Below are positions 1 through 11,155 of a stretch of DNA of 23,014 nt, piece by piece. The notes below the pieces were generated by a model, which was not told the origin of the DNA, did not search any database, and saw only the letters and a list, made by a program, of their open reading frames with translations. Numbering within the stretch: position 1 is the stretch's first letter; every line of letters begins with the position of its first letter. A program made the translations under genes and the position numbers. This DNA is from a virus, in the IMG/VR virus record IMGVR_UViG_3300044626_000371, positions 1-23,014 of that record. One strand, given 5' to 3'.

Positions 1-780
1 CGATTTTACCATTGTATCAAGTATACTTCTTTGATCAGAAAAAGTCAAGTAAGGTTCAATTCTCAAACTATTCATTGCTTCTAAAATATCAAATTCATCA
101 GTATCAATAAATTTAGAGTATCTATAATAAAGTTGATTCCAGATATGTTTATAAATTTGCTCCAATCTATTTGACTGTATGTTTTGAGTTTTGATACCCC
201 AGAGATGGTAAAGATCTTGTTTCAATTTGACAAGATCAGAAATAAAACTATCAACATAACAGTCAAGAAAATCAATAAAAAATAATCTATTTTTATGAAA
301 AATAATATTATTAAAAGTTAAATCTCCATGACAAAAAGTTTTAGGAACATAAACATCTTGCTTACCAATTAAAAGTTCAATGTATTCCAAATAATTCTTA
401 TAACAAGTTTTATTTTTTAAAAATTTAATTTTTTCATCAATATTTGGTTGAACATTAATCAATCGATAGTTTGAAATAAGAGAATCAAAATATTCAAATA
501 AAGTATCAATGACAAATTCTATGTCCTTAATAGAAGATGTAGAAAAAAATTTCACAAAAGATTTTCCAGGAATGTATTCCATATCAAAATACCCGTCCTG
601 AATATTATGAACTTTGGGGGTATCTATATTCTTTAAAATTCGATGAGAAAATAAAACTTGTTTATTAACTTGTAAAGAAAGTCTTGAGTTATAATTGATT
701 GATGAAGAATATTTTCTAAGTACTCTGCTATCAATTAATTCAAGTTTACATCCAGATAATCCTACAGAAAAATCTAACAT
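1..780 (-). CDS. APH/choline-kinase-like phosphotransferase, C-terminus cut by window edge
   Basis: The frame is open from an ATG at 780 to the window edge, giving 260 codons without a stop, so the C-terminus lies outside. The Brenner motif of aminoglycoside/choline kinase-like enzymes is visible: HGDLTFNN at residues 151-158 (catalytic D153, N158), followed by FIDF with metal-binding D174. Proteins of this fold transfer phosphate from ATP to small hydroxylated substrates; the substrate here is unknown. It lies 43 bp downstream of fucose-nucleotide genes on the same strand, so a role in making or decorating a surface glycan is plausible but inferred. It is markedly AT-rich and lysine/isoleucine-rich compared with fcl and gmd, which may mean separate acquisition. 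No Shine-Dalgarno sequence precedes the ATG, and an in-frame TAA lies 18 bp upstream, which fixes the start. Confidence 0.75.
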   Translation of the reverse strand, partial: MLDFSVGLSGCKLELIDSRVLRKYSSSINYNSRLSLQVNKQVLFSHRILKNIDTPKVHNIQDGYFDMEYIPGKSFVKFFSTSSIKDIEFVIDTLFEYFDSLISNYRLINVQPNIDEKIKFLKNKTCYKNYLEYIELLIGKQDVYVPKTFCHGDLTFNNIIFHKNRLFFIDFLDCYVDSFISDLVKLKQDLYHLWGIKTQNIQSNRLEQIYKHIWNQLYYRYSKFIDTDEFDILEAMNSLRIEPYLTFSDQRSILDTMVKS

Positions 781-823
781 TGAGGATATTGATAAATTTT
801 ATGCTACTTTCATTAGAAATAAT

Positions 824-1756
824 TTAAATAATATTTTCCAAATACCACTTATAAGTTGATTGAATACCTTCACGAAGACCAATTTTGGGATTCCAACCAA
901 GTGCTTTAATTTTATCCACATTCAAAAGTTTTCTTGGTGTTCCATTTGGTTTTGTTGCATCCCAATTGATATGACGGTCATAACCAACAACATCAGAAAT
1001 TGTTTCTGCCAGTTGTTTAATTGTCACATCCTCACCAGTCCCAACATTAATATGTTCTGGATTATTATAATTTTTCATAGAAATATAACATGCTTCAGCC
1101 AAATCGTCAACATGAAGAAATTCTCTCATAGCAGAACCATCTCCCCATAGTTTCACTTCCCAATGTTCGCTATGGTTAAGGGAATTATGAAACTTAGCAA
1201 TCATCGCAGGAAGAACGTGCCCAGTCTCCCAATCAAAGTTATCATAAGGACCATAAAGATTTGTAGGCATTAAAGAAATTGCCTTAAACCCATATTGCTT
1301 ATAATATGCTTGACACATTTTAACGCCAGCAATTTTTGCTATTGCATAAGCATCATTTGTAGGTTCTAGAGGGCTTGATAATAGTTGATCTTCAGTAATC
1401 GGTTGTTTAGCAAGTTTTGGATAAATGCAAGATGAACCAAGAAATAAAAGTTTCTTAACACCAAAATTATAAGATGAATTAATGATATTATTTTGTATCA
1501 TTAAGTTATCATATATGAATTCTCCAGGATAATTGTAATTTGCCATAATACCACCAACTTTTGCAGCGGCAAGAAAAACATATTCAGGTTCTTCTGAGCA
1601 AAAATATCTTTCAGTTTCATCTTGATTTGTAAAATCTACATCGTCACGAGTTCCTTTGATGATGTTAGTATATCCTTTACTTGCAAGATTTCTGACAATT
1701 GCAGATCCAACCATTCCGTTGGCACCTGCAACTAAAATTTTAGAATCACTGTCCAT
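824..1756 (-). CDS. fcl: GDP-L-fucose synthase
   Basis: This bifunctional NADPH-dependent epimerase/reductase converts GDP-4-keto-6-deoxymannose, the product of the neighbouring dehydratase, to GDP-L-fucose. Residues 11-17 carry the nucleotide-binding GANGMVG. The active-site segment GSSCIYPK gives S108 and C110, and Y137/K141 form the YxxxK pair, all in the family register. At 310 residues the length is normal. I chose the ATG at 1756; an upstream in-frame ATG at 1774 would add six residues not seen in the family. The start overlaps the end of gmd by 11 bp, so the two are translationally linked. In a phage the product probably supplies an activated sugar for modifying host surface glycan or a virion glycan; that role is inference. 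Confidence 0.93.
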
Positions 1757-2747
1757 AAATGCACATATCCTCAACTAATTGATTAAAAGAAATCTTAGGT
1801 TCCCAACCTAATTTTTTCTTTGCCTTAGAGGCATCCCCCAATAAAGTCTCTACTTCAGCAGGTCTAAAATATTTAGGATTGACTTTAATGACTGCTTTCT
1901 TAGTATTCCAATCATATCCCACCTCATCAAGACCTTCACCCATCCATTCAATCTTCATACCAAAGTAAGGTGCTGCTGCCTCAACGAACTCACGCACCGA
2001 GTACTGCTCTCCTGTGGCAATTACATAATCATCTGCCTCATCTTGCTTAAGCATTAACCACATCGCCTCTACGAAGTCCTTAGCGTGTCCCCAGTCCCTC
2101 TTTGAGTTTAGATTCCCGAGATATAATATATCTTGTTCCCCAGTTGAAATGCGTGATAATCCTCTAGTGATTTTTCTTGTAACAAAAGTTTCTCCTCTTC
2201 TAGGGGATTCGTGATTGAAAAGAATTCCAGAAGATGCATGTAATCCGTAAGATTCTCTGTAGTTTTTGACGATCCAGTATCCATATAATTTTGCAACTCC
2301 ATAAGGTGAACGAGGATAAAATGGTGTGGTTTCTTTCTGAGGTATCTCTTGAACTTTACCGAACATCTCAGAAGTAGATGCCTGATAAATTCGGGTTTTA
2401 TTCTCCATACCAAGAAGACGAACTGCCTCAAGAATACGAAGAGTGCCGAGACCATCAACCATACCAGTATACTCAGGTATCTCAAAAGACACTTTTACAT
2501 GACTCTGAGCACCCAGATTATATATTTCATCTGGTTGAACTTGCTGAATAACTCTTACAAGATTTGTGGAGTCAGTCAAATCACCATAGTGCAATTTGAT
2601 TTGATTGTAAATATGATCAATTCTTTGAGTATTGATTTGAGAAGCACGACGAATAATACCATGAACTTCATATCCTTTCTCTAGGAGAAGTTCGGCAAGA
2701 TATGATCCGTCTTGACCTGAAATTCCCGAAATTAAAGCAACTTTCAT
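1746..2747 (-). CDS. gmd: GDP-mannose 4,6-dehydratase
   Basis: This short-chain dehydrogenase/reductase makes GDP-4-keto-6-deoxy-D-mannose from GDP-mannose, the first step toward GDP-L-fucose or GDP-rhamnose. The N-terminus has the NADP-binding GISGQDGS (residues 8-15), followed by STSEMFG (124-130) and Y149-x3-K153. The 333-residue length is slightly short of the usual 340-370 but complete. It is the first gene of the sugar operon and overlaps fcl. A promoter (TTGCAT, 17 bp, TATAAT) lies 21-49 bp upstream, embedded in a terminator. No clear ribosome binding site is present, as in many genes of this window. Confidence 0.95.
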
Positions 2748-2754
2748 ATAAGAA

Positions 2755-2940
2755 CTACTTTTTTATTATTATAGCAAAAAAGGAGAGTTTATGCAACTCT
2801 CCTTGTATAGCATGTAATAACCCTTTAATCAAGGGGGAGTTGCGCTTCTCCAGGTTGCTCGCCACCAATTCTTTGACTGGAAATTGGAAACCAGACGGGA
2901 GTAACCTCCATCCGCACCAGTCGTCATTTATATCGCCCAT
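2755..2940 (-). CDS. doubtful 61-codon ORF in the gmd upstream region
   Basis: This is an open frame in an otherwise gene-free 280-bp stretch. The middle of the translation (several Trp, mixed charged and hydrophobic residues) looks protein-like, but its last third is translated through a strong terminator and the gmd promoter, and it has no ribosome binding site. The stretch is richer in G+C than its neighbours and contains short hairpins, so an untranslated RNA or a decayed gene is equally likely. A late-promoter-like TATAAAT lies inside its 5' end (about 2926-2932). Confidence 0.2.
2768..2796 (-). promoter_or_regulatory. sigma70-type promoter of gmd, fused to the terminator
   Basis: TTGCAT (2791-2796), a 17-bp spacer and TATAAT (2768-2773) read toward gmd. 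The -35 spans the stem-loop junction of the terminator, and the T-run forms part of the spacer. The same arrangement recurs at 4984-5012 and 14930-14958. Confidence 0.7.
2776..2804 (-). terminator. rho-independent terminator before gmd
   Basis: A perfect 10-bp stem (AAGGAGAGTT/AACTCTCCTT) with a 5-nt loop (GCATA) is followed by a run of T on the minus strand. It ends transcription coming from the 3501-3032 operon. The loop also contains the -35 of the gmd promoter. Confidence 0.85.
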
Positions 2941-2974
2941 ACGACAAGGGCATTAAGGGGTCATATTTGACTCC

Positions 2975-3047
2975 ACCAGTACTTTTAGAGTCTCTCCGTG
3001 ACTAAAGGGGGTTCATCACCGACCAGTACTTTTAGAGACTCTCCGTG
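2975..3047. repeat. 26-bp direct repeat, two copies
   Basis: The 26 bp at 2975-3000 and at 3022-3047 differ at one position. The second copy contains the last codons and stop of the 85-residue gene ending at 3032; the first is a copy just beyond that stop, 21 bp away. Both contain a short GAGAG/CTCTC palindrome. Confidence 0.85.
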
Positions 3048-3289
3048 TCTTCATCATCGTCTCTTATATAACAAGGTACTCTATCAGGGTCCAACCATTT
3101 AGCATAATTAAAGTCTTCCATAGCAGTCAAGCACTGCATCTGATTATCAAACAGATAGATATCATTCCATCGTTTGGTATAATAATCTTTTTTCTGAAGG
3201 CGATAATCGGGTTTGTTGTTAAGTTCAATAATACCCTTTTCTACAAACCGATATTCTTCTCGTTCCAAGAGAACTTTAGATTGAATCAT
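3032..3289 (-). CDS. hypothetical protein, 85 residues
   Basis: I do not recognise a family. The protein is rich in charged and aromatic residues and ends in an acidic tail (RDDDEDTESL). There is no signal peptide or membrane segment, so it is probably a small cytoplasmic phage protein. Its ATG overlaps the TGA of the preceding gene (ATGA at 3286-3289), which implies translational coupling. The stop codon lies in one copy of a 26-bp direct repeat. Confidence 0.75.
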   Translation of the reverse strand: MIQSKVLLEREEYRFVEKGIIELNNKPDYRLQKKDYYTKRWNDIYLFDNQMQCLTAMEDFNYAKWLDPDRVPCYIRDDDEDTESL

Positions 3290-3501
3290 TTTACTTCAAC
3301 AGTTTCAAGGTCCTGAATAAGATAATCAATTAGAATGTCATAGTTATCCAAAGCATCCTCAGAGAACATTACACCTTCATTTTGATAATATCGACGAATT
3401 TTTTTGTAAAGTTTTGGACTCTTTACATCAAGATAAAAATCACCATTCGCGGCGGCACGAAGAGTACTAAGTTCTTTCTTGAATTTGATAGTCAGAGACA
3501 T
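3286..3501 (-). CDS. hypothetical protein, 71 residues
   Basis: This is a small soluble protein with a basic N-terminal half (KFKK, KLYKKIRRYY) and an acidic C-terminal helix (LIDYLIQDLETVEV). I do not recognise the family. It is the first gene of a two-gene operon with the 85-residue gene. A perfect sigma70 consensus promoter sits 24 bp upstream of its ATG, and AAGG lies upstream of the start as a weak ribosome binding site. Confidence 0.75.
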   Translation of the reverse strand: MSLTIKFKKELSTLRAAANGDFYLDVKSPKLYKKIRRYYQNEGVMFSEDALDNYDILIDYLIQDLETVEVK

Positions 3502-3524
3502 CGCTTTGATTTGTTTACCTTGTT

Positions 3525-3553
3525 ATTATAGAGTGATTTGAGTTTTATGTCAA
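3525..3553 (-). promoter_or_regulatory. consensus sigma70 promoter for the 3501-3032 operon
   Basis: TTGACA (3548-3553), exactly 17 bp, TATAAT (3525-3530): a full consensus match. It lies between tRNA-Pro and the hypothetical gene starting at 3501. Confidence 0.85.
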
Positions 3554-3577
3554 GTGTACCAGTCTCGGAACTGGCAA

Positions 3578-3651
3578 TCGGGCATAGAGGATTTGAACCT
3601 CTGACCTTTCCGGCCCAAGCGGAACGCGCTACCAAACTGCGCTAATGCCCG
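3578..3651 (-). tRNA. tRNA-Pro (TGG), copy 1
   Basis: A full cloverleaf: acceptor CGGGCAT/ATGCCCG, D-stem GCGC/GCGC, anticodon loop CTTGGGC, T-loop TTCAAAT, discriminator A. It has the C1-G72 pair typical of proline tRNA. CCA is not encoded. Confidence 0.95.
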
Positions 3652-3664
3652 TATTTCTTTATGT

Positions 3665-3693
3665 ATAATACCATGACTACCCCATCATGTCAA
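3665..3693 (-). promoter_or_regulatory. sigma70-type promoter of tRNA-Pro
   Basis: TTGACA (3688-3693), 17 bp, TATTAT (3665-3670), starting 3 bp past the 3' end of tRNA-Ser. The spacer contains the short inverted repeat CATGA/TCATG. Confidence 0.75.
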
Positions 3694-3695
3694 TA

Positions 3696-3778
3696 CGGAA
3701 AGAACAGGAATCGAACCTGCGAAGTTTTTACACCCAGCCGCTTTCAAGGCGGTGTCCTCGACCAACCGGACTCTTTCC
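3696..3778 (-). tRNA. tRNA-Ser (TGA)
   Basis: Acceptor GGAAAGA pairs with TCTTTCC, the anticodon loop is CTTGAAA, and there is a class II long variable arm, T-loop TTCGATT and discriminator G. The outermost anticodon-stem pair is an A/C mismatch. Confidence 0.92.
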
Positions 3779-3789
3779 AAAATAAGTCC

Positions 3790-4050
3790 TTAACGGACTT
3801 CAAAATCAAGTCGTCTTACTTTACGCTGACGCCTTGCTTCTTGAAAGGCAAGGTCTTCATTCGTAAGAACAGTAGACTTTTCTTTGATACTCATATAGTT
3901 TACCATAACGACCTTTGATAAGTCAAGTGCCGCAATATTTTCATTATTACGAATGGTTGCCATATTAGGACATCCACAAGTAATTGTTTTACCAGACTTC
4001 CCTTCAATCTCGCTTCCGCAAGGCTTACATCTAACTTTTAAGTTTTCCAT
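3790..4050 (-). CDS. small zinc-ribbon protein
   Basis: This 86-residue protein has a four-cysteine metal site near the N-terminus (C8, C11, C25, C27; pattern CxxC then CxC). A hydrophobic middle and a very basic C-terminal helix (EARRQRKVRRLDFEVR) follow. The arrangement suggests a small nucleic-acid- or protein-binding zinc ribbon; no enzymatic motif is visible. It starts 12 bp after the dps stop on the same strand and is probably co-transcribed with it. tRNA-Ser follows 11 bp downstream. Confidence 0.8.
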   Translation of the reverse strand: MENLKVRCKPCGSEIEGKSGKTITCGCPNMATIRNNENIAALDLSKVVMVNYMSIKEKSTVLTNEDLAFQEARRQRKVRRLDFEVR

Positions 4051-4062
4051 CGCTATAATTAA

Positions 4063-4506
4063 TTATTCAGTAAATGATCTTAACATCCAAACTGCTTTTC
4101 CGTGAGATTCATTCAAATCGTCAACAAGATTAATAGTTCCTTTTGAGTTTTGTTTCTCTGCTTCATCGGACACCTCGGTAAGCATCTCAATAATTTTCTT
4201 ATGGTCTCCCATCAATTGCTCAACCATAGTCTTGGCATCAATAGACTGTGTGCTATTTGACGCCTGCTCCACTCCAGAGACCTCTGTAATGCGTGTGAGG
4301 GTGCTTACAGGTTTCATACCCAGGAATCGCATATGCTCGGTGATACGGTCGATTTCCTCAAACATTTCCTCATATTGCCCACCAAACAAATCGTGATACT
4401 CCTTAAAATTGGGTCCAACAACATTCCAGTGATATATCCAAGTTTTATGAAATAAGACGAAAAGTGATGCCTGTGTATCACTCAATAGTTTGAATAGTTT
4501 TTCCAT
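4063..4506 (-). CDS. dps: Dps-family ferritin-like DNA-protection protein
   Basis: Members of this family form dodecamers that oxidise and store iron and often bind DNA, protecting it from peroxide. The ferroxidase residues of Dps are present: H26 in YHWNVVGPNF, H38, and D53-x3-E57. The 147-residue length is normal for the family. The late-promoter octamer TATAAATA (4526-4533) lies 20 bp upstream of the ATG, so expression late in infection is likely, perhaps to protect phage DNA or capture iron during packaging (inference). It is followed by the zinc-ribbon gene. Confidence 0.9.
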   Translation of the reverse strand: MEKLFKLLSDTQASLFVLFHKTWIYHWNVVGPNFKEYHDLFGGQYEEMFEEIDRITEHMRFLGMKPVSTLTRITEVSGVEQASNSTQSIDAKTMVEQLMGDHKKIIEMLTEVSDEAEKQNSKGTINLVDDLNESHGKAVWMLRSFTE

Positions 4507-4525
4507 TACTCAAAGTAGTTTTGAG

Positions 4526-4533
4526 TATTTATA
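4526..4533 (-). promoter_or_regulatory. T4-type late promoter of dps
   Basis: The octamer TATAAATA lies 20 bp before the ATG and directly after the 3' end of tRNA-Val. It matches the T4 gp55/gp33-dependent late promoter. Confidence 0.75.
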
Positions 4534-4534
4534 A

Positions 4535-4607
4535 TGAGCAATCGCAGATTCGAACTGCGGACTTTCTGAATGTAAATCAGACACTCTAACCGCTGAGTTA
4601 ATCGCCC
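4535..4607 (-). tRNA. tRNA-Val (TAC)
   Basis: Acceptor GGGCGAT/ATTGCTC (two G-U pairs), anticodon loop TTTACAT, T-arm CGCAG-TTCGAAT-CTGCG, discriminator A. Its 5' end is 6 bp beyond the stop of a 44-residue ORF. Confidence 0.94.
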
Positions 4608-4613
4608 CTAAAG

Positions 4614-4748
4614 TCAAGACTGATTCATCATATATTCTACCGTAGTTGCTATATCATTCATAGCATCACGGAGATTTTCTCTTTGACCAGATTCTTGTTT
4701 ACGAATTGGACGAGAACTATCACACAGAGTCCACCTCCACTGATTCAT
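4614..4748 (-). CDS. small ORF, 44 residues, overlapping the upstream gene
   Basis: An ATG at 4748 opens a 44-residue frame that overlaps the end of the 80-residue gene by 29 bp and stops just before tRNA-Val. It starts MNQWRW and ends with a helix (NDIATTVEYMMNQS). The composition is protein-like, and the frame fills an otherwise empty gap with the overlapping-start style seen throughout the window. There is no clear ribosome binding site. The family is unknown. Confidence 0.5.
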   Translation of the reverse strand: MNQWRWTLCDSSRPIRKQESGQRENLRDAMNDIATTVEYMMNQS

Positions 4749-4962
4749 TTCTGAGCAGAACCATAGATTTATCTTCATTCTTATAGTGTTCTAACTTAAT
4801 CCAATTTATAAGAGCATTTACTTCCATCATTTTTTGTTCATCTTGTTTAATGACGATATCAGAAGGAAGTTCTCCAAAGTTAATGATTAATGGAATTGCA
4901 GTTTTATAGTATTCTAATGCTTCTATAGCAAGTTTTCTATCACGTTGAGAAATAAGCGACAT
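4720..4962 (-). CDS. hypothetical protein, 80 residues
   Basis: This is a small helical acidic protein (starts MSLISQRDRKLAIEALEYY) with no recognised family. An in-frame ATG at 4995 lies upstream of the -10 box and cannot be transcribed from the promoter at 4984-5012. The ATG at 4962 has the best ribosome binding site in the region, TAGGAGG ending 3 bp before it, so I place the start there. It may be coupled to the 44-residue ORF that overlaps its 3' end. Confidence 0.75.
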   Translation of the reverse strand: MSLISQRDRKLAIEALEYYKTAIPLIINFGELPSDIVIKQDEQKMMEVNALINWIKLEHYKNEDKSMVLLRNESVEVDSV

Positions 4963-4983
4963 AGACCTCCTAACTCGTTTCTT

Positions 4984-5012
4984 ATTATACGACAAAAGGG
5001 AGGTTTCGTCAA
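4984..5012 (-). promoter_or_regulatory. sigma70 promoter built into the pstS terminator
   Basis: TTGACG (5007-5012), 17 bp, TATAAT (4984-4989). The -35 covers the loop of the pstS terminator and the spacer includes its descending arm and T-run. It drives the 80-residue gene starting at 4962. Confidence 0.8.
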
Positions 5013-5018
5013 CCCCCC
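4994..5018 (-). terminator. pstS rho-independent terminator
   Basis: The stem GGGGGGTT/AACCTCCC (one G-U pair) with loop GACGA and a TTTT tail starts 10 bp after the pstS stop. An alternative hairpin GACGAAA/TTTTGTC overlaps it. Confidence 0.8.
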
Positions 5019-5027
5019 ATATCTATA

Positions 5028-5990
5028 TCAGTTACCGATACGCTTTACGGCAATTCTTGATTTGTTGAGAATGCTACCGGCAAGAGGAACATAACCCAGA
5101 TCATCAGCAAGCATTTGTGCCTTAGAACTCAAAGCATAATTGAGTGCCTGTTGAATATCACCAGTCTTTGCACCATTTCCAGTCTTATAGGCAAGAATCC
5201 AAGTCAGAGTGGAGATAGGATATGCACCAGAGGCAGAAGGATTAGGATTTTCGCCAGCAAGATTTGCATCCAGTTTGATAGAGTTTAGAGCAATAGCACC
5301 AGACTTAGCAGTAGGAAGAACAAACTGCCCTGCCTTATTTTGAACTGCTGCTGTCTGAAGTTTATTTGCTTTCACAAATCCGGTATTCACATAACCAATA
5401 GAACCAGGAGTGGTCTTAACAGTACCAGAAACACCTTCATTTCCTTTACCACCAATACCAACAGGCCATTTTACTGACTTACCAACTCCAGGTTTCCAAC
5501 CACCAAAAGCATCCAGAGAATTAGTAAATGCAAAAGTAGTTCCAGAACCATCAGAACGATGAACCACAAGAATAGGTCCAGCAGCACATCCAAGTGCCTT
5601 CCAGTTCTTGATGGTTCCAGAAAACACATCTACAGTTTGCTTCTGAGTGAGTTTCAGAGTGCATCCAGGTTTGTTATAAGCAACGGCAATAGTTCCACCC
5701 ACCATAGGAATTTGAACCACGCCACGCTTAACTTTACTTGCCTCTTTTGACGAAATAGGTTCATCAGTTGCACCAAAATCGACAGTTCCTGCGACATACT
5801 GACGGACACCAGAACCAGAACCAACTGACTGATAATTCACACGATTGCCAGTTTCAGAAGCATAACCTTGGAACCAGCGTTGATAGATGGGTGCTGGAAA
5901 GGTGGCACCAGCACCATTCAAAGGAGGTCCAGCAAGAGCGGCAACAGGAGCAGCAACCAGACCAGCAACAATAAGATTTTTGAGTTTCAT
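5028..5990 (-). CDS. pstS: periplasmic phosphate-binding protein PstS
   Basis: This is the substrate-binding subunit of the high-affinity phosphate ABC transporter. It carries a signal peptide (about residues 1-20, ending VAALA) and the family hallmarks GAGATFPAPIY near the mature N-terminus, GSGSGVRQ, and HRSDGSGTT in the middle, all phosphate-contacting segments. The 320-residue length is typical of cyanobacterial and cyanophage PstS. No PstABC genes are present, so it must work with host permease. It sits behind a Pho-box-like site and a promoter, and next to a porin gene, suggesting joint use during phosphate-limited infection. Phage pstS regulated by host PhoBR is known in cyanophages. 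Confidence 0.97.
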   Translation of the reverse strand: MKLKNLIVAGLVAAPVAALAGPPLNGAGATFPAPIYQRWFQGYASETGNRVNYQSVGSGSGVRQYVAGTVDFGATDEPISSKEASKVKRGVVQIPMVGGTIAVAYNKPGCTLKLTQKQTVDVFSGTIKNWKALGCAAGPILVVHRSDGSGTTFAFTNSLDAFGGWKPGVGKSVKWPVGIGGKGNEGVSGTVKTTPGSIGYVNTGFVKANKLQTAAVQNKAGQFVLPTAKSGAIALNSIKLDANLAGENPNPSASGAYPISTLTWILAYKTGNGAKTGDIQQALNYALSSKAQMLADDLGYVPLAGSILNKSRIAVKRIGN

Positions 5991-6013
5991 AAAAAGTGAA
6001 TAACTACAGAGTA

Positions 6014-6042
6014 ATTATAAGGTAAAGGAAAGATAAAATCAA
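6014..6042 (-). promoter_or_regulatory. pstS promoter
   Basis: TTGATT (6037-6042), 17 bp, TATAAT (6014-6019) reading toward pstS, whose ATG is 24 bp further on. The -35 overlaps the second half of a Pho-box-like site. Confidence 0.75.
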
Positions 6043-6058
6043 CTAAGATTTGGTTAAG
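6040..6058 (-). promoter_or_regulatory. Pho-box-like operator of pstS
   Basis: On the minus strand, CTTAACCA, three bases, then CTTAGTTG. The first half matches the cyanobacterial Pho-box octamer (PyTTAAPyPyT/A) and the second matches partly, with the correct 3-bp spacing. It sits immediately upstream of and overlapping the -35. Binding by host PhoB is inferred. Confidence 0.6.
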
Positions 6059-6060
6059 AC

Positions 6061-6089
6061 AAAAAAAAGCACCCAAAGAATGGGTGCTT
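6061..6089 (-). terminator. porin terminator
   Basis: A perfect 9-bp stem (AAGCACCCA/TGGGTGCTT), 5-nt loop and a run of eight T. It begins 24 bp past the porin stop and separates the porin transcript from the pstS promoter. Confidence 0.92.
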
Positions 6090-6112
6090 CTACTCATATT
6101 ATGAGTTGTTTA

Positions 6113-7597
6113 TCAGAATGTGAACTTAGTCTGGACTACACCACCCCACTTGCTGGAATCTTGATAACGCTGATTGTTATCAACATAGAACAGAGCAGGA
6201 GTAATGCTGATGTTATCGGTGACTTGGAACTTGTAGAAGATTTCAAGCAGAGTTGCATCATCTACACCAGCGGTTTCGGCAGAAGGTGCTTGACCCAAAG
6301 CAATACCAGCAGAGTTACCCTTAGCAAAGACATCGCTCCACTGAAGACCAACCATCCAAGAATTGGAATCAGTAGCATCACCCGAACCAGGAGTACCACT
6401 TACACCATTATATCCATAAGCAGCAGAAACGGAAGGAACCCAACCAGATTGTTGTGGTTGCCAATAAGCATTAAGAGCAACACTATTGGATTCTTGACCA
6501 GCAGCAAGAGTACCATTAGCACTCAAGAGACCGTTGTAGGTGCGCGAACGAGTGCCTTCAGTACCATAACGGTAACCTACGGCAACACCCCACTGAGGAG
6601 CACGATAACCAACTTGAGCAAGCAGGTTCAGAGCACCATCAGCATTGAATACACCAGTTTCGGAATCATCACCGTTCTGAGCAACATAGTTCAGACCAGC
6701 AACAAATCCACCTTGACCTTTCTTGGTAGGTTGTTTCCACTGAGCACCAAAACCAGCACCAGTTGCCTTGTTATAGACACCGGGAACACCAGAAACAGCA
6801 AAGAAGTCAAGAATTTCTGACTTATAAGCAGAAGGAATCCATGCCATCTCGGTATTACGAACCAGAGGACCAGCAGTTAGAGTTAGACTCTTACTTACAG
6901 GGAACTGGTAGTAAAGACGATCGATCTCTACAGTTCTATCGGTAGATTCTGCCTTATCAAGTTTGAACAAAGAAGAACTAGAACCAAAAGGATCGCTACT
7001 GAAGTTACCGGAACGAAGACGAGTACGGAGCAAGTCCTTACCAGTAAACGAGGTATCAAAGTTCAGACGCAGATCATAGTTGAATGCGGTGTTACCCACA
7101 TCAGCACCTTTATTGGTTTCAAGACTAGGAACTCCACCAAGCATGAAATTGACTTCACCCTTGAGTTTAGTAGTGGTAGAGAATTGTGTTGCTTCCAAGT
7201 TTCCAACACGGTTCTCCAGACCATCTACACGACCCTTGAGTACTGCAAGTTCACTCTTGAATTCGTTCAGCAGTCGTTGAAGTTCATCTGTAGTTTCAGT
7301 CACACGATCCAAACAGGCATTCAGCAGTGCTGCTGCTTCAAAGCGAGTCATTGCCTGACCACCTTTGTATGTGCCGTTAGGATAACCAGCAACGCAACCA
7401 TAACGGTCTACGAGGTTGGTAAGTGCCTGATATGCCCAATCAGTAGGTTGGACATCAGAGAATTGAGTAACACTTGTAACCTGTGCTGCCGAAGCATACT
7501 TATTGACATCCTCAGTATTGAGTTCTGCAGCGATAGCAGCAGGAGCAACAAGACCCAGAGCAACAGGGACGAGCATTAGTTTTTTAAGAAAATTCAT
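6113..7597 (-). CDS. cyanobacterial-type outer-membrane porin with SLH domain (SomA/OprB-like)
   Basis: Cyanobacterial major porins have a signal peptide, one SLH domain that anchors to peptidoglycan-linked polysaccharide, a coiled coil and a C-terminal beta-barrel. All four are visible: signal peptide at residues 1-23 (ending AIAA), SLH at about 44-97 (FSDVQPTDWAYQAL, YPNGTYKGGQAMTRFEAA), coiled coil at about 100-135 (RVDGLENRVGNLEA), then an alternating-strand region ending in phenylalanine (VQTKFTF) as outer-membrane barrels do. The 494-residue length is complete. It has its own terminator and lies just upstream of pstS. The protein should insert in the host outer membrane and admit small anions or solutes; a role in phosphate entry is inference from its neighbour. 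Confidence 0.9.
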   Translation of the reverse strand: MNFLKKLMLVPVALGLVAPAAIAAELNTEDVNKYASAAQVTSVTQFSDVQPTDWAYQALTNLVDRYGCVAGYPNGTYKGGQAMTRFEAAALLNACLDRVTETTDELQRLLNEFKSELAVLKGRVDGLENRVGNLEATQFSTTTKLKGEVNFMLGGVPSLETNKGADVGNTAFNYDLRLNFDTSFTGKDLLRTRLRSGNFSSDPFGSSSSLFKLDKAESTDRTVEIDRLYYQFPVSKSLTLTAGPLVRNTEMAWIPSAYKSEILDFFAVSGVPGVYNKATGAGFGAQWKQPTKKGQGGFVAGLNYVAQNGDDSETGVFNADGALNLLAQVGYRAPQWGVAVGYRYGTEGTRSRTYNGLLSANGTLAAGQESNSVALNAYWQPQQSGWVPSVSAAYGYNGVSGTPGSGDATDSNSWMVGLQWSDVFAKGNSAGIALGQAPSAETAGVDDATLLEIFYKFQVTDNISITPALFYVDNNQRYQDSSKWGGVVQTKFTF

Positions 7598-7656
7598 ATA
7601 GTTCGTTAAGAATTACAACTACGAAGTTTATTTAGACCCCCTGATATTTTAGGGGA

Positions 7657-7727
7657 AGCGGATACACGGATTTGAACCGAGGATAAAAGTTTGGAAAACT
7701 CTTGTGTTACCACTACACCATATCCGC
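7657..7727 (-). tRNA. tRNA-Gly (TCC)
   Basis: Acceptor GCGGATA/TATCCGC, anticodon loop TTTCCAA, T-loop TTCAAAT, discriminator T. It is the last tRNA of the array, followed by a short hairpin (CCCCT/AGGGG) and the porin gene. Confidence 0.93.
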
Positions 7728-7732
7728 AATGT

Positions 7733-7803
7733 TGAGAGTGGAAGGTTTCGCATCCTTCTACTGTATCCCTTGTCGGGGTGCCTTACTTTTGGCATCACTC
7801 TCA
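7733..7803 (-). ncRNA. tRNA-sized cloverleaf-like RNA without an anticodon
   Basis: A perfect 8-bp closing stem (TGAGAGTG/CACTCTCA) encloses a 4-bp hairpin (TGCC/GGCA), a weak CCC/GGG hairpin, and a 5-bp hairpin (GAAGG/CCTTC) that abuts the closing stem as a T-arm would. The 71-nt length equals a tRNA, but there is no TTCRA T-loop and no plausible anticodon loop. It lies 24 bp downstream of a consensus promoter and 5 bp before tRNA-Gly. Function unknown. Confidence 0.5.
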
Positions 7804-7826
7804 GCGTACTTCCTTCACACCATGGA

Positions 7827-7855
7827 ATTATAAGACATAATGAGTATTATGTCAA
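7827..7855 (-). promoter_or_regulatory. consensus sigma70 promoter with palindromic spacer
   Basis: TTGACA (7850-7855), 17 bp, TATAAT (7827-7832). The -35 overlaps the last base of tRNA-Thr. A perfect 8-bp inverted repeat (GACATAAT/ATTATGTC, 4-bp centre) fills the spacer. It drives the tRNA-like RNA and tRNA-Gly. Confidence 0.85.
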
Positions 7856-7925
7856 GCCCCATAACAGAATTGAACTGTTCTCTGCAGTTTACAAAACTGC
7901 TGCATCACCACAATGCTTATAGGGC
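7855..7925 (-). tRNA. tRNA-Thr (TGT)
   Basis: Acceptor GCCCTAT/ATGGGGC, D-stem GCAT/ATGC, anticodon loop TTTGTAA, T-arm AACAG-TTCAATT-CTGTT, discriminator T. Its 5' half is also the last codons of the HNH gene. Confidence 0.93.
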
Positions 7926-8233
7926 GGATTGTGTAATTCTCTATGGCAGTTAGCACAAACAAGAATACACTTTTTTGCTTCTTCTCTTTGTTTTTCAAGA
8001 GAAAGAGTAGACCCAATTATACCACCTTCCTTTACGGTTGGGTCAAGATGGTGGAAATCTAATGCGGCAATGCACTTATTATACCCACATATAGAGCAAC
8101 AGTTTCCTGCTTCCTCTTTTAGAATAGCAACATTTTTCCTTCTGGTAGCGGATACACGCTCTGCGCTTTTCTTTGCCCAATCAGGATTTTTTGCTTTTCT
8201 TTCAGCATAAGTTCGTGTTTCTATTTTTGCCAT
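7889..8233 (-). CDS. HNH endonuclease, probably a free-standing homing endonuclease
   Basis: This 114-residue protein carries an HNH nuclease core with a zinc site: C46-x2-C49, the catalytic FHHLDP (H61, H62), and C93-x2-C96-HREL. The N-terminus is basic and lysine/arginine-rich, as expected for DNA binding. Such small HNH proteins act as mobile endonucleases in T4-like phages and often sit beside tRNA genes. The last 12 codons and the stop lie inside tRNA-Thr. A late octamer TATAAATA (8255-8262) precedes the ATG by 21 bp; no ribosome binding site is evident. Confidence 0.88.
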   Translation of the reverse strand: MAKIETRTYAERKAKNPDWAKKSAERVSATRRKNVAILKEEAGNCCSICGYNKCIAALDFHHLDPTVKEGGIIGSTLSLEKQREEAKKCILVCANCHRELHNPPYKHCGDAAVL

Positions 8234-8254
8234 TATTATTGGTATAACTTTTAT

Positions 8255-8262
8255 TATTTATA
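8255..8262 (-). promoter_or_regulatory. T4-type late promoter of the HNH gene
   Basis: TATAAATA between tRNA-Asn and the HNH start, 21 bp before the ATG. Confidence 0.65.
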
Positions 8263-8269
8263 CCGATAA

Positions 8270-8342
8270 CTCCCCCACCTGGACTCGAACCAGGAACACT
8301 TTGATTAACAGTCAAATACTCTGCCAATTGAGCTATAGGGGA
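8270..8342 (-). tRNA. tRNA-Asn (GTT)
   Basis: Acceptor TCCCCTA/TGGGGGA, anticodon loop CTGTTAA, T-loop TTCGAGT, discriminator G. Confidence 0.95.
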
Positions 8343-8348
8343 ATATTG

Positions 8349-8461
8349 GTAGGAGGGGGAGAACAAAGTGACTACCTCATCCCTCTTGCACATCATCTAG
8401 ACTTTTGGACAGACCAGAGAGAGGTGTTGCACTTCCTACATTTTGATAGAGGCGCCTATCA
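8349..8461 (-). ncRNA. structured RNA segment between promoter and tRNA-Asn
   Basis: Just downstream of the promoter at 8468-8496 comes a 6-bp hairpin (TGATAG/CTATCA, 8444-8461). A domain closed by GTAGGA/TCCTAC (8349-8439) with internal ACCTC/GAGGT pairing follows. The segment has no convincing ORF. It may be a leader removed during tRNA processing or a stable RNA. Confidence 0.35.
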
Positions 8462-8467
8462 GTTTAT

Positions 8468-8496
8468 ATAGTAACAAACTTTTGAAGGTTTGTCAA
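8468..8496 (-). promoter_or_regulatory. sigma70 promoter inside the tRNA array
   Basis: TTGACA (8491-8496), 17 bp, TACTAT (8468-8473), 3 bp past tRNA-Arg(ACG). The spacer contains ACAAAC/GTTTGT as an inverted repeat. Confidence 0.75.
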
Positions 8497-8498
8497 GC

Positions 8499-8571
8499 GT
8501 CCTTTGAGAGATTCGAACTCCCGACACATAGGTTCGTAGCCTACTGCTCTAATCCACTGAGCTAAAAGAAC
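8499..8571 (-). tRNA. tRNA-Arg (ACG)
   Basis: Acceptor GTTCTTT/AAAGGAC, anticodon loop CTACGAA, T-loop TTCGAAT, discriminator G. The A34 anticodon would need tRNA adenosine deaminase (host TadA). Confidence 0.94.
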
Positions 8572-8575
8572 AAGG

Positions 8576-8647
8576 CGAAGGGTGAGGGATTTGAACCCCC
8601 ATCGCAAGGTTTTGGAGACCTGCATCTTACCGTTAGACTAACCCAAC
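8576..8647 (-). tRNA. tRNA-Trp (CCA), with stem mismatches
   Basis: The anticodon loop CTCCAAA gives CCA; T-arm GGGGG-TTCAAAT-CCCTC; discriminator G. The acceptor GTTGGGT/ACCCTTC has two T-T mismatches and the anticodon stem one C-T mismatch, so function is less certain than for its neighbours. Confidence 0.75.
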
Positions 8648-8669
8648 AAAATTTGGATATAAAATCCAA

Positions 8670-8743
8670 TGCCCGATACAGGACTCGAACCTGTAAAACC
8701 TTGTTTCTAAGACAAGTATGTATTCCAATTCCATCAATCGGGC
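8670..8743 (-). tRNA. tRNA-Leu (TAG), short variable loop
   Basis: Acceptor GCCCGAT/ATCGGGC, anticodon stem CTTGT/ACAAG with loop CTTAGAA, T-arm ACAGG-TTCGAGT-CCTGT, discriminator A. The variable region is only about 5 nt (GTTTT), whereas bacterial leucine tRNAs have a long arm. Confidence 0.88.
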
Positions 8744-8746
8744 TGG

Positions 8747-8817
8747 CTGAGAAACTAGGACTCGAACCTAGATAAACGCCTTCAAAGGGCGGTGTCCTAC
8801 CATTAGACGATTTCTCA
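8747..8817 (-). tRNA. tRNA-Gln (TTG)
   Basis: Acceptor TGAGAAA/TTTCTCA, anticodon loop CTTTGAA, T-loop TTCGAGT, discriminator G. Confidence 0.94.
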
Positions 8818-8821
8818 TTGG

Positions 8822-8893
8822 GGTGTCGTGAGGGAATCGAACCCTCGTAGGGAGAATCACAATCTCCAGTCTTAACCACTAGACTAACGACAC
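8822..8893 (-). tRNA. tRNA-His (GTG)
   Basis: Acceptor GTGTCGT/ACGACAC, anticodon loop TTGTGAT, T-loop TTCGATT, discriminator C. The base before position 1 is T, so the usual encoded G at -1 is absent. Confidence 0.92.
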
Positions 8894-8895
8894 AG

Positions 8896-8968
8896 TGGCT
8901 GTAGATGGATTCGAACCACCGACGACTTCCGTATGAAAGAAGCGTTCTACCAACTGAACTATACAACC
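8896..8968 (-). tRNA. tRNA with anticodon CAT (elongator Met, or Ile2 if modified)
   Basis: Acceptor GGTTGTA/TACAGCC, anticodon loop TTCATAC, T-loop TTCGAAT, discriminator A. The G1-C72 pair argues against an initiator. Lysidine-modified Ile cannot be excluded. Confidence 0.92.
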
Positions 8969-8971
8969 TGG

Positions 8972-9054
8972 TGGAAGATGTTGGATTCGAACCAACGGAG
9001 GTTTTATCCTCACGGTTTAGCAAACCGATGCATTAACCGCTCTGCCAATCTTCC
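8972..9054 (-). tRNA. tRNA-Ser (GCT)
   Basis: Acceptor GGAAGAT/ATCTTCC, anticodon GCT, long variable arm (TGAGGATAAAACCTC), T-loop TTCGAAT. The discriminator is A rather than the usual G of serine tRNA. Confidence 0.92.
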
Positions 9055-9058
9055 AAGT

Positions 9059-9148
9059 GGGGAGAAGGTGGAATCGAACCACCATTGCCAAAGGACGGAA
9101 TCGAACCGTCTCTAACACCGTCGTGCTCACCATCCAAGGTGCTCTCCC
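9059..9148 (-). ncRNA. tRNA-like RNA with two T-arm-like hairpins
   Basis: The ends pair as an acceptor stem (GGGAGAG/TTCTCCC), and a normal T-arm (GGTGG-TTCGATT-CCACC) abuts it. A second hairpin with the same loop (GACGG-TTCGATT-CCGTC) lies 10 nt upstream. A CACC/GGTG hairpin and an AGCAC/GTGTT hairpin with a 4-nt loop occupy the D and anticodon positions. The only 7-nt loop that could serve as anticodon loop is the second TTCGATT (CGA, serine), but then the D region is about 12 nt too long. It may be an aberrant tRNA-Ser, a recombined tRNA, or a tRNA-like RNA. Confidence 0.55.
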
Positions 9149-9151
9149 AAG

Positions 9152-9258
9152 TTGATAAGGGCGCCTGATTTAAAGTGCGCTTGGGTCGTTTAACTAGGGG
9201 ACTATTTCACCCTCCTCCCCCGTCACACTAATGTTTGGTGGGGGTGGACCCTTATCAA
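9152..9258 (-). ncRNA. 107-nt structured RNA closed by a 10-bp stem
   Basis: The perfect inverted repeat TTGATAAGGG/CCCTTATCAA encloses 87 nt containing GCGC/GCGC and CCCCC/GGGGG pairings. It fits exactly between tRNA-Ile and the tRNA-like RNA, has no convincing ORF, and is G+C-rich. Its position resembles that of stable RNAs C and D in the T4 tRNA cluster. Confidence 0.5.
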
Positions 9259-9330
9259 TAGGAATACCCAGATTTGAACTGGAATCTATCGGTTATCAAC
9301 CGATTGCTCTAACCATTGAGCTATATTCCT
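9259..9330 (-). tRNA. tRNA-Ile (GAT)
   Basis: Acceptor AGGAATA/TATTCCT, anticodon loop TTGATAA, T-loop TTCAAAT, discriminator A. Confidence 0.95.
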
Positions 9331-9334
9331 GAGG

Positions 9335-9408
9335 CGGGAACAATTGGATTTGAACCAATAACACCTTGTTCTTCAAACAAGTGCTCTACCAATTGGAGCT
9401 ATGTTCCC
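9335..9408 (-). tRNA. tRNA-Phe (GAA)
   Basis: Acceptor GGGAACA/TGTTCCC, anticodon loop TTGAAGA, T-arm ATTGG-TTCAAAT-CCAAT. The discriminator is G, where A is usual. Confidence 0.93.
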
Positions 9409-9412
9409 AAGG

Positions 9413-9486
9413 TCTGAGAGGCAGGATTTGAACCTGCGACTTGAGCGTTCCAAACACCCAGCTCTACCAAACTGAGCTACTCCCAG
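9413..9486 (-). tRNA. tRNA-Pro (TGG), copy 2
   Basis: Acceptor CTGGGAG/CTCTCAG with C1-G72, anticodon loop TTTGGAA, T-loop TTCAAAT, discriminator A. It reads the same anticodon as the copy at 3578 but differs widely in sequence, so the two were acquired independently. Confidence 0.92.
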
Positions 9487-9489
9487 ATA

Positions 9490-9561
9490 CATTCCTAACG
9501 GGATTCGAACCCGTGTTACCTCCTTGAAAGGGAGGTGACCTAACCGCTAGTCGATAGGAAC
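9490..9561 (-). tRNA. tRNA-Glu (TTC)
   Basis: Acceptor GTTCCTA/TAGGAAT (G1-U72 wobble), anticodon loop CTTTCAA, T-loop TTCGAAT, discriminator G. Confidence 0.93.
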
Positions 9562-9568
9562 TTGATTT

Positions 9569-9629
9569 GAAGGCAGGTGCGGTATCATCCCGAAGGCGTT
9601 CCCATGCTCCTTTTACTTTCCTTGCCTCC
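9569..9629 (-). ncRNA. possible structured RNA between tRNA-Asp and tRNA-Glu
   Basis: A 7-bp terminal stem (GGAGGCA/TGCCTTC, one G-U) closes 47 nt with a CC-TTCG-GG mini-hairpin. The acceptor-like stem length is suggestive, but no T-arm or anticodon arm is present. Confidence 0.3.
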
Positions 9630-9631
9630 AA

Positions 9632-9703
9632 CGACCCTAACGAGATTCGAACTCGTGATTCTTCTTAGACAGAGAAGTATGATAACCACTTCATCATAGG
9701 GTC
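9632..9703 (-). tRNA. tRNA-Asp (GTC)
   Basis: Acceptor GACCCTA/TAGGGTC, anticodon loop CTGTCTA, T-loop TTCGAAT, discriminator G. Confidence 0.95.
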
Positions 9704-9707
9704 AAGG

Positions 9708-9796
9708 TGGGAGAAGAGGGAATTGCACCCCCAACGGTTCTTATGTAACAGTTTTACAGACTGCCGCCACACATATCTAATAGTAGCCTTTCTCCC
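9708..9796 (-). tRNA. tRNA-Tyr (GTA), aberrant D- and T-loops
   Basis: Acceptor GGGAGAA/TTCTCCC, anticodon loop CTGTAAA, long variable arm, discriminator A. The T-loop is TGCAATT (G replaces T at position 55), and the D-loop (TATTAGATATGT) lacks the G18-G19 pair that normally docks with it. Confidence 0.8.
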
Positions 9797-9799
9797 AAA

Positions 9800-9872
9800 T
9801 GGGTCGTAGAGGAGTTGAACCTCTCTCTACCGGTTAAAAGCCGGGTGCATAAAACCGATCTGCCAACGACCC
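9800..9872 (-). tRNA. tRNA-Lys (TTT)
   Basis: Acceptor GGGTCGT/ACGACCC, anticodon loop CTTTTAA, T-arm AGAGG-TTCAACT-CCTCT, discriminator A. Confidence 0.95.
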
Positions 9873-10002
9873 AAATAATATGGATAAATATTCGGTTGTC
9901 TAGGTTCTGGTGGAGAGGCAATCCCTCAACCACTTGATTAGAATACCACCGTTTGGTCTCTGGGGGGAGATTGGTGGGCACTTAGGAAACTGGTACAGGC
10001 AA
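9873..10002. other. 130-bp spacer in the tRNA array
   Basis: A GTG-started frame (from 9981) reads toward tRNA-Lys with protein-like composition but runs on through the tRNA before stopping, so I do not call it a gene. A late-promoter-like AATATTTA segment and a TATTAT lie close to tRNA-Lys, too near to start that transcript properly. It may be a decayed gene. Confidence 0.3.
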
Positions 10003-10037
10003 CAAAAAAGGGGAGGAAACTTTTGGTTTCTCTCCCC
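10003..10037 (-). terminator. terminator of the 33-codon gene
   Basis: GGGGAG and GAAAC (one bulged A) pair with GTTTC and CTCCCC around a short A-rich loop, followed by six T. It lies 30 bp past the stop at 10067. Confidence 0.88.
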
Positions 10038-10066
10038 CTTCTTATTTGCTTTTTATGGATTACATC

Positions 10067-10168
10067 TTACATATGTCTTTCCATATCCGCAAACAGGGGA
10101 GAACCCTCAATATGCCAATAGCGGCAATCGAGATTACTAATCTGTTTTGTGGGCATCGGATAAGACAT
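10067..10168 (-). CDS. 33-residue protein encoded within the tRNA array
   Basis: An ATG at 10168 opens a 33-residue frame starting MSYPMPTKQISNLDC and ending in a methionine/histidine-rich helix (ADMERHM). The gene has every part of a transcription unit: promoter TTGACT-17-TATAAA at 10192-10220, an AGG-containing ribosome binding site about 9 bp upstream, and a strong terminator 30 bp downstream. The family is unknown. It contains one Cys, one Trp and no membrane segment. The compact unit argues for real expression, as peptide or as a small RNA of about 180 nt. Confidence 0.55.
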   Translation of the reverse strand: MSYPMPTKQISNLDCRYWHIEGSPLFADMERHM

Positions 10169-10191
10169 TGTTTTCGACCTAAGTGTTTTTA

Positions 10192-10220
10192 TTTATAAGA
10201 CTTTTTTGTTAAAAAGTCAA
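10192..10220 (-). promoter_or_regulatory. combined early/late promoter of the 33-codon gene
   Basis: TTGACT (10215-10220), 17 bp, TATAAA (10192-10197). The -10 also forms a late octamer TATAAATA (10190-10197). The -35 starts 2 bp past tRNA-Ala. The spacer carries GACTTTTT/AAAAAGTC as an inverted repeat. Confidence 0.75.
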
Positions 10221-10221
10221 G

Positions 10222-10295
10222 TGGAGAATATCGGACTCGAACCGATGACATCTTGCTTGCAAAGCAAGTGCTACTACCAACTGAGCTAATTCCCC
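10222..10295 (-). tRNA. tRNA-Ala (TGC)
   Basis: Acceptor GGGGAAT/ATTCTCC with the alanine identity pair G3-U70, anticodon loop TTTGCAA, T-loop TTCGAGT, discriminator A. The D-loop has two extra bases. Confidence 0.95.
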
Positions 10296-10298
10296 AAG

Positions 10299-10372
10299 CG
10301 TCCCGAGCTGGATTCGAACCAGCGACCCACATCTTAGAAGGATGTTGCACTAATCCGCTGTGCTATCGGGAC
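10299..10372 (-). tRNA. tRNA-Arg (TCT)
   Basis: Acceptor GTCCCGA/TCGGGAC, anticodon loop CTTCTAA, T-loop TTCGAAT, discriminator G. First tRNA of the main array in the direction of transcription. Confidence 0.95.
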
Positions 10373-10460
10373 ATAAGGAACCTCCCTGTTTGTGCTTCTA
10401 TGAGAGGCATGGGAGGTGTGGGATTTATAAGAAGTTTGGACCTCCTCCACCCGTGAACCT
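10373..10460 (-). ncRNA. leader segment upstream of the tRNA array
   Basis: The segment lies between the promoter at 10461-10489 and tRNA-Arg(TCT). It contains a perfect 7-bp stem (ACCTCCC/GGGAGGT) around a 24-nt loop, and a late-like TATAAAT. I see no convincing ORF. It is probably a processed 5' leader. Confidence 0.3.
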
Positions 10461-10489
10461 ACTATAAGGCATCAGGGTACTAAAGTCAA
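10461..10489 (-). promoter_or_regulatory. promoter heading the tRNA array
   Basis: TTGACT (10484-10489), 17 bp, TATAGT (10461-10466). The -35 overlaps the stop codon of the histone-like gene. Confidence 0.75.
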
Positions 10490-10674: not shown

Positions 10675-10711
10675 AATAATCTCCAAAATAAAATAGGATA
10701 TGTTTATATAG

Positions 10712-11119: not shown

Positions 11120-11145
11120 AAAAAAAGAGGAGTATAGAACTCCTC
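11120..11145 (-). terminator. terminator after the tail-type lysozyme gene
   Basis: The stem GAGGAGT/ACTCCTC with a 5-nt loop is followed by seven T, immediately before the next gene's ATG at 11119. Confidence 0.88.
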
Positions 11146-11147
11146 AG

Positions 11148-11155
11148 TATTTATT
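11148..11155 (-). promoter_or_regulatory. late promoter for the 135-residue gene
   Basis: The octamer AATAAATA lies 3 bp before the terminator stem. A start about 6 bp downstream would fall inside the stem, so transcripts from it would lack the full terminator. Confidence 0.55.

Follow-up and report, generated by a model that had tools for sequence, protein, structure and literature searches.

The idea of one composite element that both stops and starts transcription is already known from T4-like phages, in which promoter-early stem-loop (PeSL) elements have reportedly been described and tied to module exchange (Arbiol 2010; Comeau 2014). Composite promoter-terminators of T4-like phages are mentioned as PeSLs in the portions of PMC4503421 and PMC3950731 available to us, and according to the same portion of PMC4503421 only few such elements were seen in one region of the cyanophage S-PM2. 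The S-PM2 stem-loop given there at 11369-11391 appears to match a nested site that we locate at 11377, its -35 box agreeing with the consensus at only 3/6 positions. The elements reported here resemble PeSLs at sequence level in that one element unites a stem-loop terminator with an early promoter of host type. They appear to differ in register: in our own scans the promoter follows the terminator in RB49, Aeh1 and T4, whereas in many cyanophages the -35 box lies in the apex of the terminator hairpin. We found no description of a -35 box in the terminator apex of cyanophages in the accessible text of PMC1524935, PMC10134795, PMC4503421, PMC3950731, PMC4177764, PMC5348500 and PMC5931544. In the literature covered, outside of which most subscription papers including both PeSL papers fall, the nested register of cyanophages, its late-promoter sister form and the link to the wcaG RNA were not found described.

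Two further systems are close to the elements reported here. The wcaG RNA is a putative cis-regulatory RNA of cyanophages, for which the sections of PMC2864571, PMC9964418 and PMC9602691 available to us leave a terminator with a nested promoter between RNA and gene unmentioned. In post-termination recycling, a terminator likewise lies near a promoter and a retained polymerase can reinitiate, the studies having been performed, as far as the accessible text of PMC6978380 and PMC6978322 tells, in vitro with E. coli polymerase and with separate rather than nested elements.

Here, we analysed a window of 23,014 bases, i.e. the whole stretch of DNA under study. The window, itself a virus record of IMG/VR type, is cyanophage DNA, its closest named record being Synechococcus phage S-SRM01 (77.5% identity across 38% of the window) of the family Kyanoviridae, a T4-like family, in agreement with the annotations. 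The minus strand holds 13 of the 14 window open frames of at least 200 aa, and 20 tRNA genes were found with ARAGORN. A contig of 233,886 b (G001) encodes a PstS identical to that of the window and contains all three sites described below (A, B and C at 32447, 42393 and 30231, respectively).

Geometry of the three nested sites

An earlier note on this DNA had claimed three terminator-promoter sites on the minus strand, and hairpins, -35 boxes, 17 bp spacers and -10 boxes were all found where it had placed them. Site A lies between a pstS-like phosphate-binding protein gene (5028-5990), which is the candidate to end there, and an 80-aa gene without Pfam match (4720-4962), which is the candidate to start there. 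Its hairpin (4998-5018; 8 bp stem, loop GACGA), supported by scan, fold and gene-anchored relatives, is located directly 3' of pstS and folds with -13.6 kcal/mol (z -3.3 versus shuffles). The -35 box TTGACG (5007-5012) has its TT within the 5' arm and GACG within the loop, and is followed after 17 bp by the -10 box TATAAT (4984-4989), resulting in a promoter of 11/12 consensus matches, with the ATG of the next gene at 4962 being preceded by AGGAGG. Site B precedes a gene for a SegE-type GIY-YIG endonuclease (14426-14881; Pfam PF19835, E 3e-52) and consists of a hairpin (14943-14967; 11 bp stem, loop GAC; -12.8 kcal/mol, z -4.2 versus shuffles) found by scan and fold and in relatives, the -35 box TTGACA (14953-14958) found by the promoter scan, and, after a 17 bp spacer, the -10 box TAGACT (14930-14935), i.e. 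a 10/12 promoter. Site C shows a hairpin (2780-2804; 10 bp stem, loop GCATA; -14.3 kcal/mol, z -4.6 versus shuffles) found by scan and fold, a weak -35 box TTGCAT (2791-2796; 3/6) and, again after 17 bp, the -10 box TATAAT (2768-2773). It is absent from the promoter-scan list because the scan needs at least 4/6 matches per box. The gene that is the candidate to start at site C encodes a GDP-mannose 4,6-dehydratase (1746-2747; Pfam PF16363). All features of the three sites are on the minus strand.

At all three sites the last two bases of the 5' arm, TT, open the -35 box, which continues into the loop and thus spans the stem-loop junction as proposed, and the 3' arm together with the T-run makes up the spacer. 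An end and a start are thereby packed into about 50-60 bp, in line with the compactness suggested earlier. We infer terminator activity, promoter activity and insulation from this sequence arrangement, and early timing from the promoter type only.

Several other features were observed in the window. Upstream of pstS, between a terminator at 6089 and the gene, CTTAACC/CTTAG repeats (6089-6010, minus strand), kept in many relatives, perhaps represent a Pho box. A porin-like gene with OprB and SLH domains (6113-7597, minus strand) is located directly 5' of pstS, and a porin gene is likewise present in the pstS region of S-SRM01. A perfect promoter (TTGACA, 17 bp, TATAAT; 11979-11924, minus strand) immediately precedes a hairpin that has a T-rich tail (11942-11924). 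Transcripts from this promoter would therefore open with a terminator-like hairpin, an order opposite to that of the nested sites. Two minus-strand promoters (7855-7827 and 8496-8468) have their -35 boxes at the 3' ends of tRNA-Thr (7855-7925) and tRNA-Arg (8497-8571), the former carrying an inverted repeat in its spacer and having the same sequence in G001 and S-SRM01. An abiF RNA (RF03085, 44.8 bits; 10416-10380, minus strand) adjoins the tRNA cluster and is found at several related loci too, and in one related contig (L019, 4227-4422) a group I intron adjoins an abiF RNA.

Enrichment and register of apex promoters

The comparison of related genomes with shuffled controls, proposed by the earlier note, shows an apex -35 box being commoner than chance. 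Consensus matches were scored over the 12 bases of the -35 and -10 boxes, an apex promoter being a match of at least 9/12 with its -35 box at the hairpin apex. The 13 cyanophage genomes and large contigs comprise 10 records (9 Kyanoviridae and S-SKS1, whose record states Llyrvirus and no family) and 3 contigs, S-SKS1 being covered to 200,000 of 208,007, Syn33 to 160,000 of 174,285 and S-CRM01 up to its last 163 bases, with three pieces of G005 left out of the counts. Hairpins scoring below 8.5 were excluded, as were those lying less than 90 nt (upstream) or less than 200 nt (downstream) from the end of a piece. Among the 369 strong terminators of this set, which was not dereplicated as a whole, 70 carry an apex promoter and 37 one of at least 10/12, compared to 9 and 3 on the opposite strand of the same hairpins and to 8.0 ± 2.2 and 1.6 ± 1.3 after shuffling of the loop and downstream bases. 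In a separate, dereplicated count for 9 of the 13 genomes, 47/267 terminators carry an apex promoter against 7 (Fisher 4e-9), and in G001 10 of 29 strong terminators carry one versus 1.0 ± 1.1 in shuffles and 1 on the opposite strand. The apex totals vary by 1-2 between counts because two reference points, the stem end and the loop centre, were used in setting the interval. The position of exact TATAAT peaks 0-15 nt past the stem end. A scan of 152 stretches from IMG/VR and the S-SRM01 record (the window, 45 kb of S-SRM01, 70 pstS relatives and 80 nrdA relatives), performed with an upstream margin of 80 nt and using 512 of 570 detected hairpins, yields for 176 dereplicated strong terminators 30 matches of at least 9/12 whose -35 box starts between 20 and 11 bases ahead of the stem end, the remaining 5-bp bins containing a mean of 2.7 matches (range 0-7).

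In a stricter swap control the hairpin was retained and the sequence downstream of it was replaced by that of a different real terminator in the same genome. An excess is seen in G001 (10 versus 5.0 ± 1.7), S-SRM01 (10 versus 4.3 ± 1.5), G003 (11 versus 5.3 ± 1.9), G002 (6 versus 3.4 ± 1.4), P-SSM2 (8 versus 4.3 ± 1.5) and S-PM2 (3 versus 1.3), and is absent in DSL-LC03 (2 versus 1.6), Syn9 (1 versus 0.9) and S-CRM01 (1 versus 1.3). The excess is smaller in this control because many terminators of these phages are followed by a -10 box at the distance required, and this placement at one fixed distance is itself part of the design. The occurrence is patchy, with 1/49 terminators in S-CRM01, 1/25 in Syn9, 1/22 in S-SSM7, 2/20 in Syn33 and 2/24 in DSL-LC03. 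Larger genomes seemed richer, yet S-SSM7 with 232,878 b has 1/22, by which genome size was rejected as the cause. A host origin of the design was rejected as well, with 0/117 terminators in 80 cyanobacterial contigs that were found via PstS similarity and whose titles name mostly Synechococcus/Cyanobium and one Bifidobacterium breve, these contigs being a weak control at 66% GC. T5 and SPO1 have no apex promoter in 89 terminators.

These data bear on the explanation that the nested sites are a chance by-product of AT-rich and compact intergenic spaces. Promoter-like matches are indeed common, with 46 in positions 1-12000 of the window versus 29.8 expected, and several cyanophages are without excess in the swap control; however, the stem-preserving shuffles, the opposite strand, the flanking rates and the gene-anchored relatives described below all oppose chance for the family, rendering this explanation scarcely credible. 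Chance is refuted for the family, while one single site could yet have arisen in this way.

The register differs between these cyanophages and RB49, Aeh1 and T4. Counted per terminators, nested and tandem promoters of at least 10/12 occur in a ratio of 35:5 in the 13 cyanophages versus 6:26 in RB49, KVP40, Aeh1 and T4, with KVP40 supplying 5 of these 6 nested promoters, and of 0:6 in T5 and SPO1; at a threshold of at least 9/12 the ratios are 70:21, 11:50 and 0:17, respectively. The register was also measured from the promoters, those of at least 10/12 near a strong hairpin being called nested if the hairpin centre is 0 to less than 10 bases from the -35 start. This applies to 9/14 in G001, 6/15 in S-SRM01, 9/21 in G003, 5/9 in G002, 4/6 in P-SSM2 and 7/14 in KVP40, and to 0/48 in RB49, 2/39 in Aeh1 and 0/7 in T4. 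RB49 differs further in having hairpins also inside the promoter spacer, over the -10 box or upstream, and KVP40 is partly nested, its near-nested form having TTGAC within the 5' arm. An ATG, counted as a codon only, lies within 200 nt of the stem in 33/35 nested cyanophage sites, the median distance of the first one, counting from 22 nt onwards, being 37 nt.

Orthologous places, the late-promoter sister form and module joints

Clusters of similar sequences show both boxes at a spacing of 17-18 bp in 15/15 distinct sequences for site A, 20/21 for site B and 16/16 for site C, comprising 8, 14 and 10 different 5' arms, respectively; these clusters are partly circular, since the grouping used the element itself, a loose pattern served for the -10 box of site A, and among several fitting spacers the one nearest 17 was chosen. 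Due to this circularity we repeated the comparison with relatives chosen by the neighbouring gene only, blind to the element, from which 2/70 pstS and 4/69 segE hits with unmatched ends or a short flank were removed and in which identical regions were merged. Behind pstS a strong terminator is present in 25/36 distinct regions, and 23 of these 25 carry an apex promoter of at least 10/12. Before segE 23/62 distinct regions have a strong terminator, with an apex promoter of at least 9/12 in 19 of the 23 and of at least 10/12 in 18. The best spacer is 17-18 bp, and the stems are highly varied (site A: gggggtt/aaccccc, aaggggc/gcccctt; site B: aagcaccct/agggtgctt, gagaggg/ccctctc, gggcct/gggccc). 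Putative terminator and apex promoter go together at both orthologous places, and the gene-anchored relatives are the strongest evidence for this association. A strong terminator is lacking in 11/36 pstS and 39/62 segE regions, and even at these typical places the element is thus by no means universal. The pstS 3' regions of five loci (L012, L024, L028, L031 and L037) contain another nested element, with a gcTTGACgc or gCTTGAcac apex, and another following sequence, suggesting that elements of different make replace one another there.

The suggestion that the design recurs rather than being copied stands for the three window sites, the stems of which are unrelated, and does not extend to the whole clade, in which near-copies exist. 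Copying as the sole cause at sites A-C was rejected as the stems differ both here and among relatives. One early-type element has near-copies at S-SRM01 52024 and 56776, G001 144140 and G003 248530, the downstream flanks of which are unrelated or barely related (z at most 3.5), while one pair has a common upstream flank (z 14.1).

We identified a sister form with a late-type promoter. In the window, two sister composites are encoded on the minus strand, one at 16602-16634 (hairpin 16634-16616, T-run into TATAAATA at 16609-16602) before a 370-aa gene and one at 15406-15438 (hairpin 15438-15419, T-run into TATAAATA at 15413-15406) before a 132-aa gene whose end lies just 5' of site B. TATAAATA corresponds to the T4-type late promoter motif. 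As in T4-type late promoters, the sister composites end in this motif, directly past the T-run, and unlike the nested early type this class has no -35 box in the loop. A T-run into TATAAATA at most 18 bases from the stem occurs in 29/369 cyanophage terminators, 0 to 0.12 per genome being expected from the downstream sequence (9 genomes), and in 3/32 terminators of T4.

A joint at base level was found in one such late-promoter sister element, none being seen at sites A and B. The late-type element at G003 245758 shares 112 nt with 99.1% identity with that at S-SRM01 62459, and this island stops at the start codon. The genes behind the two elements are dissimilar; the G003 gene instead resembles the gene behind another S-SRM01 element at 56008 (84.6% over 384 nt). 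The S-SRM01 gene at 62515-63273 contains NUMOD3 motifs and the one at 56059-56742 has no Pfam match. The simplest reading of these sequences would be recombination at the late-type element. At site C, relatives retain the upstream part and differ in their downstream genes (7 of 14 loci tested), which in the seven loci encode a GDP-mannose dehydratase, a protein resembling cytidylyltransferases, three epimerase-type proteins, a nucleotidyl transferase and, in one case, a product lacking a Pfam match. As a separate observation, two genes of S-SRM01 (L324; 51291-52024 and 56008-56776 in the numbering of the record), one annotated with nuclease-associated modular domain 3 and the other as hypothetical, each have a late-type composite before them and an early-type nested composite after them.

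The wcaG locus and models of the nested junction

Site C is preceded by a wcaG RNA (RF01761; 2851-2953, minus strand), which passes the Rfam covariance model with 71.4 bits versus a cut-off of 42 and ends 46 nt from the site. A wcaG RNA lies just 5' of the composite in 17/18 related loci picked because they carry such a composite, the exception being L019. Just 5' of the wcaG RNA two near-identical direct repeats (ACGGAGAGNCTCTAAAAGTACTGG; 3050-2960, minus strand) were read by eye. Since a putative terminator and its own promoter separate wcaG from the gene, wcaG would either act via termination or belong to the upstream message, and the nested promoter thus bears on what wcaG regulates.

The loop of site C, ttGCATAaa, is invariant across 16/16 distinct cluster sequences, the stems of which vary, and such constancy appears to exceed what a promoter by itself need demand. 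Together with the poor -35 box this would fit a model according to which some sites are terminators only, their loops being kept for an RNA reason, e.g. contact with wcaG at site C, and their boxes being weak or inactive. On the other hand, the -10 box and the 17 bp spacer are retained in these same 16 sequences, the apex behind the wcaG RNA reads TTGACT in G002 and TTGACA in DSL-LC03, and the stem is no more complementary to the wcaG RNA of its own locus than to swapped partners (7.6 versus 8.0 at 14 loci), so that we consider this model improbable. As to a possible riboswitch action of wcaG on the downstream gene, a terminator follows this RNA closely, but the same simple complementarity test gave no support for its pairing with the site C stem as an anti-terminator, a reading that was rejected.

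Comparison of all sites supports a model, which we consider quite likely judging from the sequence, according to which the element is a self-contained nested terminator-promoter junction ending the upstream message and starting the next one. As RNA, a GC-rich hairpin followed by U residues would end the upstream message, and as double-stranded DNA the same stretch would act as a host-type, i.e. early-type, sigma-70 promoter, its -35 box occupying the apex of the hairpin. A spacer of 17-18 bp would result from the 3' arm together with the T-run, the -10 box starting about 5-12 bp beyond the stem, and the new transcript would start some 17-25 bp beyond the stem and thereby never contain a complete terminator. 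Since base pairing leaves the apex of a terminator unconstrained, both signals would fit with little conflict. Co-directional gene modules would thereby be separated by a self-contained boundary of about 60 bp, which may also serve as a homologous joint for module exchange.

The proximity of both signals raises the possibility of a coupling by polymerase recycling, in which the polymerase releases the RNA at the T-run, slides about 10-15 bp to the overlapping promoter and reinitiates. The nested layout places the promoter near the release point, and the accessible text of PMC6978380 (see also PMC11347151) reports E. coli polymerase being retained, sliding and reinitiating downstream in 37% of terminations, and in 55% with added sigma-70. 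However, this support is from E. coli and not from cyanobacterial polymerase, the restart is usually antisense according to the portion of PMC6978322 available, and a reach of about 1000 bp, as cited in the accessible part of PMC11347151, renders an overlap unnecessary. Moreover, the sequence cannot tell coupling from adjacency and a simple module boundary explains the data equally, and we consider recycling unlikely.

Mutual exclusion, in which a promoter-bound polymerase blocks arriving ones and upstream traffic occludes the promoter, would result in an either-or control of neighbouring modules. In favour of such a model, a promoter footprint of normal size would presumably span the hairpin. 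The nearest upstream promoter is nevertheless of late type in 14/49 nested versus 24/137 plain terminators (7 of the 13 genomes; Fisher p 0.10), so that nested sites do not as a rule mark a switch of promoter class, making mutual exclusion rather improbable. With the same counts, a temporal switch, by which early genes would be restarted at nested sites following late genes, is not established.

A more far-reaching version, to which we assign little probability, is that of an active coupler, in which polymerase freed at the T-run would be passed to the promoter in the same hairpin, termination thereby driving initiation, and in which wcaG would toggle between readthrough and restart at site C. 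If true, site C would be a switch for the downstream sugar genes whose off position is also the start site.

The self-contained junction would imply that one DNA stretch is apparently under two codes, i.e. RNA pairing and reading by a sigma factor. The elements are natural compact parts for asking whether polymerase that terminates is passed on to a promoter next to it, and their layout appears specific enough for predicting transcript ends and starts from the sequence in some cyanophages. Our data suggest that the PeSL idea of a composite element can be extended to cyanophages.
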